Shown: piece after piece, positions 25,773 through 28,607 of the stretch | Position numbering within the stretch: the first letter of the stretch is position 1 | How the letters are laid out: every line of letters starts with the position of its first letter | DNA from: Prochlorococcus sp. AG-402-O16 | GTDB lineage: Bacteria > Cyanobacteriota > Cyanobacteriia > PCC-6307 > Cyanobiaceae | Direction: 5' to 3' | DNA length: 64,000 nucleotides | Assembly (NCBI GenBank): GCA_003216415.1 | Contig: QCIY01000001.1 | Location: 62,001 to 126,000, forward strand | Made by a program: the position numbers and the translations under genes | Notes under the pieces: model-generated | Seen by the model: the letters and a program-made list of their open reading frames with translations, nothing else | Databases searched by the model: none | Told to the model about the DNA's origin: nothing

Positions 25773-26081
25773 ATGAAATTTTTATCTAATTCTAGGCAAT
25801 TTCATAAGGCTTTGGCGCCTTGGGTTTTTCTTCCATTATTTATTTCTTCAATTACCGGACTTCTCTACAGGGTTTCAAAAGATTTATTAGGTTACTCTAG
25901 AGACCAAGTTCATTGGTTAATGTCGCTCCATGAGGGGGAATGGCTTGGGGATAATGGAGAATTAATTTATGTATTTTTGAATTCCCTTGGAGTTTTATGG
26001 ATGCTCATAACGGGATTACAAATGTTTTCAAAAACTATTTCATTAACCAAAAAGGTTACTAAAGGCGAGACAAAAGGTTAA
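25773..26081 (+). CDS. PepSY-associated membrane protein
   Basis: A 102-residue protein with two hydrophobic segments, about residues 14-33 and 65-83. The segment [23 protein letters not shown] in pieces, with a conserved His at the start, resembles the PepSY-associated TM family; the loop between the helices has [12 protein letters not shown]. Function unknown, possibly redox- or heme-linked at the membrane. It precedes rplS by 23 bases on the same strand and may share its transcript. Confidence 0.7.
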
Positions 26082-26104: not shown

Positions 26105-26584
26105 ATGACCAAAATGGCCAAAGAGAAACAAGAAAATGAATTAGAAACCAGTAATAAAGCTGACAAATCAATTGATGTGGCAGTTGAAAAAGAAGAAAAA
26201 AACTTGGTTTCTGAAACTTCAAATAATATAAGCTTTTCCAACCTCATTAAGGAATTTGAGAATGAACAATTAAAAAAAGAATTACCTGAAATTTATGTCG
26301 GGGACACCGTTAAAGTTGGTGTTAAAATTACGGAAGGGAATAAAGAAAGAGTTCAACCTTATGAAGGTGTTGTAATAGCAAAAAGACATGGAGGCATTAA
26401 TCAGACTATTACAGTTAGAAGAATTTTTCAGGGCATAGGTGTTGAGAGAGTATTTATGCTACATAGTCCACAGGTTGCCTCTCTAAAAGTTGAACGTAGA
26501 GGTAAAGTAAGAAGAGCTAAGTTATTCTATCTAAGAGATAGAGTAGGAAAAGCTACTCGCGTAAAACAACGCTTTGATCGATAA
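26105..26584 (+). CDS. rplS: 50S ribosomal protein L19
   Basis: A large-subunit protein at the interface of the two subunits. The conserved domain begins about residue 42 with [19 protein letters not shown], then [30 protein letters not shown] and [14 protein letters not shown]. The first 40 residues form an acidic, low-complexity extension absent from most L19 proteins; an alternative start at the second Met (residue 4) hardly changes it. tRNA-Trp follows after 53 bases. Confidence 0.95.
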
Positions 26585-26637
26585 AGTTGTAAATTAATCA
26601 ACTTATTGGTCACAAAGGCGCTTATAATTATTTAGAT

Positions 26638-26710
26638 GCGTCGTTAGTTCAGTTGGTAGAACGCAGGTCTCCAAAACCTGATGTCGGGGGTTCAAGTCCT
26701 CCACGACGCG
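26638..26710 (+). tRNA. trnW: tRNA-Trp (anticodon CCA)
   Basis: The acceptor arms GCGTCGT and ACGACGC pair perfectly, a TTCAAGTCC T-arm is present, and the anticodon loop reads CTCCAAA with CCA at its centre. Discriminator base G is at 26710 and no CCA end is encoded. It lies between rplS and the PSHCP gene. Confidence 0.97.
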
Positions 26711-26746
26711 TTTGATCAACATTATGTAAATCATTTTTTTCATAAG

Positions 26747-26941
26747 ATGGAGTTAGATCTTCAACCTGGGGACGTAGTTAAAGTCCTCGAATCAGCAGCT
26801 TTAGGATGGGTACGTGCAAGAGTCATCAGAGTTAAATCTGGTGGGAGAGTAGTCGTACAAAGTGATCAAGGCAGAGAATTTACCGCCAGAGGTAACCAAG
26901 TGAGGTTGATAGAACCTGCAGGATTTAGACCTCAAAAATAA
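26747..26941 (+). CDS. Picocyanobacterial hyper-conserved protein PSHCP (Tudor-fold, tRNA-binding)
   Basis: A 64-residue basic protein starting MELDLQPGDVVKVLESAALG. I recognise it as PSHCP, described as nearly invariant across Prochlorococcus and marine Synechococcus, with a Tudor-like fold and affinity for tRNA around Lys30. In this sequence residue 30 is indeed Lys (end of WVRARVIRVK). The published form is 62 residues; this one appears to end with two more. A longer frame upstream would begin inside tRNA-Trp and is rejected. The gene starts 36 bases after tRNA-Trp and ends about 145 bases before tRNA-Asp. A role in translation or tRNA handling is supported by the neighbours but remains inference. 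Confidence 0.9.
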   Translation: MELDLQPGDVVKVLESAALGWVRARVIRVKSGGRVVVQSDQGREFTARGNQVRLIEPAGFRPQK

Positions 26942-27086
26942 TTTTTTTTTATTGAGGCAGCTCTAAAACAAACTATTTCTTTAAATCCTCAAATTAATAA
27001 ATTTTTTTTATTACAACAACATTAATTAAGTATTATGATCTGATAATTTTAAGAATAGCGTTCCAATTAAATTTGGACCAAACTCT

Positions 27087-27160
27087 GGGACCGTAGTTCA
27101 ACTGGTTAGAGCACCGCCCTGTCACGGCGGAAGTTGCGGGTTCGAATCCCGTCGGTCCCG
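27087..27160 (+). tRNA. trnD: tRNA-Asp (anticodon GTC)
   Basis: GGGACCG pairs with CGGTCCC to make the acceptor stem, and the anticodon stem-loop is CCGCC-CTGTCAC-GGCGG with GTC at the centre. The T-arm reads GCGGGTTCGAATCCCGT. Discriminator G at 27160. The gltX start lies 16 bases downstream. Confidence 0.97.
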
Positions 27161-27176
27161 TTTTTTATAAAAAAAT

Positions 27177-28607
27177 TTGGAAAAACGATTAAGATTAGCT
27201 CCAAGTCCAACAGGTTTATTTCATATTGGTACAGCACGGACAGCATTATTCAACTGGTTGTATGCAAAAAAAATAAACGGAAAATTTCTCATCAGAATAG
27301 AAGATACAGATTTTCTAAGATCTAAATCTGAATATACAAAAAATATACTCGAGGGCTTGCAATGGCTTGGACTTAAATGGGATGAAGAACCTGTAAAGCA
27401 AAGTGACCGAATTTCAATTCACAAAAAATACATCAAAAAGCTATTAGAATGTGGAGATGCTTATAGATGCTTTACTACTGAAGATGAGATTTCTGACTTA
27501 AGAGAAAAACAAAAAAAGAAAGGATTACCTCCAAAGCATGACAACAGACACAGAAATCTCTCAAAAGAAGAAATAGAATCATTTATTTCCCAAGGAAGAA
27601 CTTCAGTAATCAGGTTTAAGATTGATGAAAAAATTGAAATTAAATGGGTAGATCAGATAAGAGGCGAAATCAAATGGCAAGGTAAGGATCTGGGTGGTGA
27701 TTTAGTTTTGTCAAGAAGGGCTAAGGGATATGAGATTGGAAATCCTTTGTATAATCTTGCAGTTGTAGTTGATGATAATTTCATGAATATTACTCATGTT
27801 GTAAGGGGTGAAGACCATATCTCGAATACTGCAAAACAAATATTGATTTATAAAGCATTGAATTTTAATTTGCCAATTTTTTCGCATACACCCCTAATAC
27901 TAAATAGCGAAGGGAAAAAATTATCTAAAAGAGATTGCGTTACTTCAATCGACGAATTTAGAGAAATGGGATATTTACCTGAGGCCTTATCGAACTATAT
28001 GGCCTTTTTAGGTTGGTCTCCAAAATCTGCCGACAGAGAAATACTTTCACTTGGAGAGATATCTGAAATTTTTGACTTATCAGAAATAAATAAAGCTGGA
28101 GCCAAATTCAGTTGGGAAAAACTCAACTGGATTAATTCTCAATATATAAAAAATATGGAATCAATAAAGTTAAGTGAGTTTATGAGGAAATATTGGGACG
28201 ATAATGGTTGGGAGCCGCCATCTCAAGAATGGGCTTATAAATTAGCAATTTTAATTAGAGACTCTATGACTCTTTTAAAAGATTCAATTGATCAATCAAA
28301 ACCATTTTTCTTAATGCCTACAATTCAAAAAGAAGGTCAAGATTTTCTGGAAAACAGCGATAGCAAATTATCTCTAAAACTAATCTTAAATTATTTAATT
28401 GAGCAAAACACTATAAAACTAAATAAAGAGAAAGCCAAAGAAATAATAAACGAAATCTCAAAAAAGCATAATATTAAAAAAGGGATATTAATGAAATCAT
28501 TAAGAGTAGCCTTTTTTGGATCTCTCAGTGGGCCAGATTTAATTCAAAGTTGGGAGCTTTTCGCAGAGAGTAAAACTGATAGAACTCGAATTGAAAGATG
28601 TCTTTAA
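27177..28607 (+). CDS. gltX: Glutamyl-tRNA synthetase
   Basis: Charges tRNA-Glu; in cyanobacteria its product also feeds 5-aminolevulinate synthesis. The 476-residue class I enzyme has the HIGH-type motif in LAPSPTGLFHIGTART (residues about 7-22) and the KMSKS-type motif KLSKR near residue 247. The start is TTG at 27177, since the HIGH motif begins soon after and no ATG fits. Only 16 bases separate it from tRNA-Asp, so the mRNA leader would be formed by tRNA 3' processing. The stop abuts the stop of the convergent antiporter gene. Confidence 0.97.
   Translation: MEKRLRLAPSPTGLFHIGTARTALFNWLYAKKINGKFLIRIEDTDFLRSKSEYTKNILEGLQWLGLKWDEEPVKQSDRISIHKKYIKKLLECGDAYRCFTTEDEISDLREKQKKKGLPPKHDNRHRNLSKEEIESFISQGRTSVIRFKIDEKIEIKWVDQIRGEIKWQGKDLGGDLVLSRRAKGYEIGNPLYNLAVVVDDNFMNITHVVRGEDHISNTAKQILIYKALNFNLPIFSHTPLILNSEGKKLSKRDCVTSIDEFREMGYLPEALSNYMAFLGWSPKSADREILSLGEISEIFDLSEINKAGAKFSWEKLNWINSQYIKNMESIKLSEFMRKYWDDNGWEPPSQEWAYKLAILIRDSMTLLKDSIDQSKPFFLMPTIQKEGQDFLENSDSKLSLKLILNYLIEQNTIKLNKEKAKEIINEISKKHNIKKGILMKSLRVAFFGSLSGPDLIQSWELFAESKTDRTRIERCL

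Follow-up and report, generated by a model that had tools for sequence, protein, structure and literature searches.

In a 64,000-nucleotide (nt) stretch of the genome of Prochlorococcus sp. AG-402-O16 (contig positions 62001-126000 of a 1.49-Mb genome; this whole stretch is the window below), the gene for PSHCP, the 'Prochlorococcus/Synechococcus Hyper Conserved Protein', lies between two tRNA genes. One way to account for this placement is that the tRNA in front of the gene provides the beginning of its messenger. That is, PSHCP is probably, though by no means surely, the last cistron of a transcript that runs from rplS, or from tRNA-Trp itself, and its 5' end would be made by the cut at the tRNA 3' end; tRNA-Asp and gltX, which follow, would form a separate unit. 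Few proteins of the most abundant phototrophs of the ocean are as conserved as PSHCP, and the idea of a tRNA-led messenger makes a concrete prediction: a processed 5' end at the tRNA-Trp 3' end.

The five genes rplS, tRNA-Trp, PSHCP, tRNA-Asp and gltX are consecutive in the window, all on the + strand, and this order, claimed by the original prediction from the window alone, holds across the family. Of 229 PSHCP loci, which include 80 named records taken as the best 80 of 363 relatives, 221 have all five genes in this order on one strand; the remaining eight (L027, L092, L134, L219, L225, L241, L247 and L251) are cut off by a contig end, and what is left of them fits the same order. None of the 229 has PSHCP in a different order. 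The collection holds repeat sequences, with 196 loci distinct over the region after six were set aside; at the level of genera, 46 have the full order and three a truncated one. The order is not due to chance. A single tRNA-Trp match was obtained from each of 15 genomes.

Neither the gene order nor the partial co-transcription is new. Whidden et al. (2014, PMC4215834; statements on this paper refer to the accessible parts of its text) described the same protein in Prochlorococcus and in marine and freshwater Synechococcus, partly co-transcribed with its neighbors, with the order rpl19, trp-tRNA, PSHCP, asp-tRNA, gltX conserved in all picocyanobacteria examined. Those parts propose promoters in tRNA-Trp and the leader, and no mention was found in them of a fixed leader, a helix, a tRNA-Asp promoter or the order in outgroups; as far as searches of the open-licence literature go, these four are new here. 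The features of the window are as follows.

26105..26584, + strand: rplS (50S ribosomal protein L19), upstream gene of the unit; Ribosomal_L19, 157.8 bits (Pfam/NCBIfam)
26623..26628, + strand: TATAAT, -10-like box of tRNA-Trp, 9 nt 5' of it, without a matching -35
26638..26710, + strand: tRNA-Trp (CCA anticodon), Rfam 68.8 bits; ARAGORN 26637-26711; CCA end not encoded
26711..26746, + strand: PSHCP leader, 36 nt, tRNA-Trp to ATG
26747..26941, + strand: PSHCP, 64 amino acids, Tudor fold; ATG at 26747, stop codon ends at 26941
27010..27039, + strand: predicted tRNA-Asp promoter, ATTACA, 18 nt, TATGAT (from sequence and conservation)
27087..27160, + strand: tRNA-Asp (GTC), by Rfam and ARAGORN
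27161..27176, + strand: tRNA-Asp/gltX spacer, 16 nt, too short to hold its own promoter
27177..28607, + strand: gltX (glutamate--tRNA ligase), TTG start; TIGR00464, 529.7 bits

The PSHCP ATG stands 36 nt beyond the Rfam-defined end of tRNA-Trp, exactly where the earlier reading had put it, and this short gap is nearly fixed: it measures 34-37 nt in 205 of 223 loci (L219, L220, L198, L253 and L251, in which tRNA ends were unmatched, and one locus without tRNA-Trp were set aside). With one locus for each of 47 genera, the median is 36 and the quartiles 36 and 37, and 42 of the 47 fall within 2 nt of the median. The spacer between tRNA-Asp and gltX, counted to the start of the tblastn match, is 17-70 nt long with a median of 30, and 18 of 43 genera fall within 2 nt of it; the spacer between PSHCP and tRNA-Asp runs from 112 to 666 nt across 44 genera, none of them within 2 nt of the median. 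The leader is also the most alike in sequence of five stretches compared, with a mean pairwise identity of 0.64 over the 47 genera versus 0.41 when shuffled; the others lie at 0.38-0.50.

A TANNNT box within the tRNA-Trp gene was found in none of 178 distinct genes, and a -35/-10 pair with at least 9 of 12 matches was found in tRNA-Trp and leader in none of 195 distinct loci. PSHCP has the form of an open reading frame (ORF) close behind a same-strand tRNA, 36 nt away, with neither room nor signal for a promoter in between, the caveat being a TANNNT that some leaders do contain (below). On this sequence evidence, tRNA-Trp 3' processing would be the best source of the PSHCP mRNA 5' end; the earlier suggestion to that effect draws its support from the fixed gap, the lack of a promoter pair, the lack of TANNNT in tRNA-Trp and the published measurements described next.

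According to the accessible parts of PMC4215834, reverse transcription-PCR (RT-PCR) in an earlier report cited there joins rpl19, trp-tRNA, PSHCP and asp-tRNA, and does not reach gltX. By quantitative RT-PCR (RT-qPCR), the spacer is present and the tRNA absent in 74.9% of PSHCP transcripts of strain MIT 9313 and 81.1% of those of WH 8102; in MED4, 42.8% contain neither spacer nor tRNA; transcripts from rpl19 to PSHCP amount to <2%. As tRNA-Trp contains no recognisable promoter, cleavage at its 3' end would explain the MIT 9313 and WH 8102 data at least as well as initiation within it. Reverse transcription through a folded tRNA may bias such figures.

In the mechanism proposed here, RNA polymerase would read rplS, tRNA-Trp and PSHCP; in the lineage of the window it would also start at the TATAAT before tRNA-Trp, bypassing rplS; in the other genera no promoter was found before tRNA-Trp, so read-through from rplS would have to supply tRNA-Trp and PSHCP there. 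A cut at the tRNA-Trp 3' end would then leave a PSHCP mRNA with a leader of ~36 nt. tRNA-Asp and gltX would be fired separately, from their own promoter; the gltX TTG begins 16 nt beyond the tRNA-Asp end, so the gltX mRNA 5' end would likewise come from tRNA processing, by the tRNA-Asp cut. PSHCP output would thus follow tRNA-Trp, not the whole cluster.

Bacterial tRNA-mRNA dicistrons are known from the thrT-tufB type. In such dicistrons and in mitochondrial tRNA punctuation the arrangement is alike: a protein-coding mRNA lies directly behind a tRNA and would be freed by processing. Unlike other tRNA-mRNA dicistrons, the present one has as its ORF a lineage-specific protein that reportedly binds tRNA, behind a near-fixed leader, and, in many genera, it has a helix as well.

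Promoters and terminator-like hairpins of the two proposed units

The proposed separation of tRNA-Asp and gltX from PSHCP is read from the sequence before tRNA-Asp. For this comparison, the loci with TATAAT just 5' of tRNA-Trp, the window included, were taken as one group (the TATAAT group; one locus, L224, comes from another genus); the box lies at most 20 nt 5' of tRNA-Trp in 103 of 103 distinct loci, the group being defined by that box. Outside the group, 66 of 75 distinct loci have an exact TTGACN-18-GATACT before tRNA-Asp, as do 42 of 46 genera other than the window's; within it, ATTACA-18-TATGAT is exact in 110 of 120 distinct loci. Scored by 9 of 12 matches, a promoter is present in 41 of 42 loci of the helix genera (defined below), 30 of 32 other loci and 118 of 121 TATAAT-group loci, shuffles giving 0.07, 0.33 and 0.43, respectively; the match count alone is weak in the AT-rich group of the window, and the weight rests on the recurrence of an exact string at one position.

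Hairpins resembling terminators were found between PSHCP and tRNA-Asp in 14 of 42 helix-genus loci and three of 32 others, counts that have no chance control, and in 0 of 121 loci like the window; within the window, no terminator-like site was found on the + strand from rplS to gltX. As tRNA-Asp has its own conserved promoter, two transcription units would result, (rplS-)trnW-PSHCP and trnD-gltX. The absence of a hairpin in window-like loci, together with the published RT-PCR joining asp-tRNA (as given in the accessible text), makes read-through from PSHCP into tRNA-Asp likely in the window. With internal promoters present, before tRNA-Asp and, in the window, as the TATAAT before tRNA-Trp, the locus does not have the layout of a single operon. 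The original prediction had entertained one transcript for the whole set; the likely read-through agrees with this, and the single unit is not supported.

Each spacer 5' of a tRNA contains a further hairpin. That at 26584-26604, between rplS and tRNA-Trp (AAGTTG...CAACTT), is without a T-run; its arms co-vary by eye in relatives (L039, L032), and other genera have a different hairpin in the same place. That at 27060-27079 (GTTCC...GGACC) lies directly 5' of tRNA-Asp, and its arms change jointly, by eye, in relatives of the window.

The helix around tRNA-Trp

In about half of the genera tested, though not in the window, a covarying helix of ~10 base pairs encloses tRNA-Trp and the first third of the PSHCP leader. 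Outside the group of the window, the sequences on either side of tRNA-Trp are complements of each other, GGGGNCATCG being typical of the 5' flank and CGATGNCCCC of the 3' flank. In an unchosen set of one locus per genus, the flank duplex z score lies below -2 in 21 of 47 genera, with a mean of -2.2. For the tRNA-Trp flanks the duplex energy averages -16.0 kcal/mol over 71 loci, versus -6.5 for the tRNA-Asp flanks and -9.2 when shuffled, and the tRNA-Trp flanks pair better than the tRNA-Asp flanks of the same locus in 70 of the 71.

The 23 'helix genera' were picked after the z scores had been seen, so that the pairing and covariation counts describe a chosen set; the register, moreover, was chosen for best pairing in the 23-genus pairing count and in the 25-locus covariation count. 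In these 23 genera, 8.9 of 10 positions are paired (G-U counted as 0.5), versus 7.8 with arms swapped between genera and 5.0 when shuffled; swapped arms still pair this well because the arms are alike among genera. The sixth pair of the helix is G-C in eight genera, T-A in five, A-T in four and C-G in three. Changes on both sides number 32 in all 42 helix-genus loci under one fixed register, versus 13.3 (standard deviation 2.8) in shuffles, and 27 versus 7.1 (standard deviation 2.3) in the 25 loci of that register, with 0 of 500 shuffles as high in either case; 'further pair types' are not above shuffles (268 of 500 for the 42 loci, 233 of 500 for the 25). Four loci were folded: the best fold of L153, L232 and L246 is a cloverleaf on a stem of 11-16 base pairs; in L250 the stem is present and the tRNA part is folded partly otherwise. 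An Rfam search of six loci found nothing but tRNA at the helix site. In the outgroups, the tRNA-Trp flanks have a mean z of -0.22, with six of 61 below -2, these six being unrelated in sequence.

Where the helix is present, the precursor would be a cloverleaf whose supporting stem includes the 5' third of the leader, and the helix probably shapes the order or the rate of tRNA processing. Extended acceptor stems of E. coli offer a parallel in the accessible parts of PMC9433436: there, as here, the 5' leader pairs with the 3' flank, and pairing of pre-tRNA flanks next to the acceptor stem slows RNase P, by which analogy a braking or ordering role would be plausible here. The E. coli pairings described in those parts touch the acceptor stem, whereas the present helix is offset by 4-6 nt on the 5' side and by 2 nt plus the discriminator on the 3' side. 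RNase III was considered as the reason for the helix and set aside, as a match is present in 20 of 20 genomes, 10 per kind (15 above cut-off), which does not separate the groups. The helix genera mostly have larger genomes; we take them to be Synechococcus/Cyanobium types.

The helix is also a defined RNA, and as such a candidate partner of PSHCP. One can imagine self-control, in which the protein would bind the tRNA-Trp precursor heading its own mRNA and slow or speed the cut that would release both this mRNA and tRNA-Trp; such binding is putative and the scheme a long shot. If true, tRNA-Trp supply would be tied to the PSHCP level.

Paired flanks are found elsewhere too. Three outgroup loci (L322, L193 and L173) have the ordinary rplS-tRNA-Trp order and yet strongly paired tRNA-Trp flanks of unrelated sequence. 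In genome G139, tRNA-Trp ranks second of 30 tRNAs (of 41) by flank pairing, at -23.6 kcal/mol; L288 is stronger, at -24.3.

Competing accounts of the PSHCP messenger

In the published view, PSHCP has two promoters of its own: the first lies ~37 bases inside the tRNA-Trp gene, the second 12-14 bases 5' of the ATG. Whidden et al. infer these from the RT-qPCR steps in three strains and from WebLogo conservation across 18 genomes; they invoke processing for no more than a part of the MED4 transcripts (PMC4215834, accessible parts). That inference is one of several points that count against a tRNA-led messenger. The leader contains a TANNNT, the box that the published work regarded as a second promoter, in 27 of 33 'other' loci, 20 of 103 TATAAT-group loci and six of 42 helix-genus loci, so there may be a nearly leaderless promoter; slightly wider bounds for the promoter scan, reaching into the tRNA or the ORF, give four hits in the leader and seven between rplS and tRNA-Trp in 195 loci. 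The rplS/tRNA-Trp spacer, too, varies rather little in length (median 63, with 32 of 47 genera no more than 2 nt away), and its coefficient of variation, 0.14, is not above the 0.15 of the leader, a figure that is not lower because a few leaders are long. In the window, where the helix is absent, the best fold has neither stem nor cloverleaf, and in the 24 genera other than the helix genera the pairing is 6.0, no better than with swapped arms. Own promoters are nonetheless an unlikely source: the tRNA sequence would be conserved anyway for tRNA function, the tRNA-Trp genes and the leaders gave the negative scans reported above, and among the helix genera the leader box is confined to the few loci just counted. 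Less probable still is a single five-gene operon read from the rplS promoter. The window, with no terminator-like site from rplS to gltX, would permit it, and the RT-PCR that joins rpl19, trp-tRNA, PSHCP and asp-tRNA speaks for it; but a conserved promoter stands before tRNA-Asp, hairpins follow PSHCP in part of the helix-genus and other loci (as noted, without a chance control), and in the accessible text of PMC4215834 PSHCP is not joined to gltX and rpl19-to-PSHCP transcripts are rare.

A last perspective is that of a frozen accident: PSHCP would have originated in, or been inserted into, the spacer between tRNA-Trp and tRNA-Asp and remained there, since rearranging a site flanked by essential tRNAs and L19 is costly, and the tight spacing would be no more than that of a short 5' untranslated region. 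In its favor, in one outgroup family (f11) both of two genomes (L295, L339) lack PSHCP at this site: rplS and tRNA-Trp are followed there by a terminator-like hairpin, then a TTGACA promoter and tRNA-Asp; neither genome gave a PSHCP match. This is possibly the state before PSHCP. We suspect that the family is the Synechococcus elongatus group, close to the picocyanobacteria; if so, PSHCP would have arisen between two tRNAs that were already adjacent. That no PSHCP homologue was found outside the family in class genomes, IMG/VR or phage records is in keeping with such an origin. As a full account the accident is improbable, as it fails to explain the likeness of the leader, which exceeds that of the neighboring spacers, or the helix; as a history of the locus it is compatible with a tRNA-led messenger.

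Outgroup loci show what else can stand at the site. tRNA-Trp comes directly after rplS in 61 of 63 of them, and in 41 of 63 secE-nusG comes next; the comparison places the entry of PSHCP in the slot after tRNA-Trp that holds secE-nusG in most other cyanobacteria. In all six family genomes compared (eight were searched) nusG and secE are together, without rplS or tRNA-Trp in the stretch examined, and in the genome of the window nusG is on another contig.

The PSHCP protein and its neighborhood

Residues 1-56 of the window protein are identical, without a difference, to the PSHCP Tudor domain of PDB 6NNB. A single-sequence AlphaFold model (predicted local distance difference test, pLDDT, 84.8) has 6NNB as its top Foldseek match (E 1.3e-6), and VIA-align gives Z 8.0-9.4 versus Tudor domains and 6NNB; the entry, by sequence identity and Foldseek match, confirms the Tudor-like fold that the earlier reading had given for the protein. 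Lys30, also named in advance, is present in 229 of 229 loci. The 2019 structure paper is said to place tRNA binding near this residue.

The protein is near-identical throughout, at 62-64 amino acids, and in 212 of 229 loci it takes one of two forms, the sole difference being QK at the end. When the window gene is compared with those of five other genera, synonymous differences affect 30-47 of 62 codons, and amino acid changes number 0-2. PSHCP was matched in 376 of 399 family genomes and 49 of 50 genera, and in 265 of 269 high-quality genomes (at least 90% complete, at most 5% contaminated). A match is missing in 23 of the 399. When 13 of these were searched for gltX, one gave a full-length match (G283, 322 bases from the contig end), five gave partial or 32-40% matches and seven none; for the 13 of 23 so checked, then, the locus seems to be missing from the assemblies, not lost.

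Outside the family the searches were negative or weak. Among 289 genomes of the class, at E<=0.05, matches came from 62 genomes of the family of the window, plus three weak ones (E 0.006-0.03). All three are taken as chance: two (G499, G087) are antisense to ORFs of 266 and 241 amino acids, which look dienelactone-hydrolase-like to us, and the third contains two internal stops. IMG/VR held no PSHCP relative among 34 pattern matches, the phage records no match, and PHROGs a single one at E 0.26.

Descent from the KOW domain of NusG or from L19, each of which once stood at this locus or close to it, was also considered. BLASTP of PSHCP versus one cyanobacterial NusG C-terminal domain gave nothing at E<=100, and versus L19 it aligned 10 residues at E 0.31; these two-sequence comparisons gave no useful signal. 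Archaeal Spt5 KOW domains appear among many Tudor domains in the fold comparison (Spt5 3p8b, Z 8.3, 57 aligned, 32% identity), and a fold match is not descent. At the other end of the cluster, directly 5' of rplS, an ORF of 102 amino acids at 25773-26081 has a weak PepSY_TM match (30.2 bits, cut-off 28.8).

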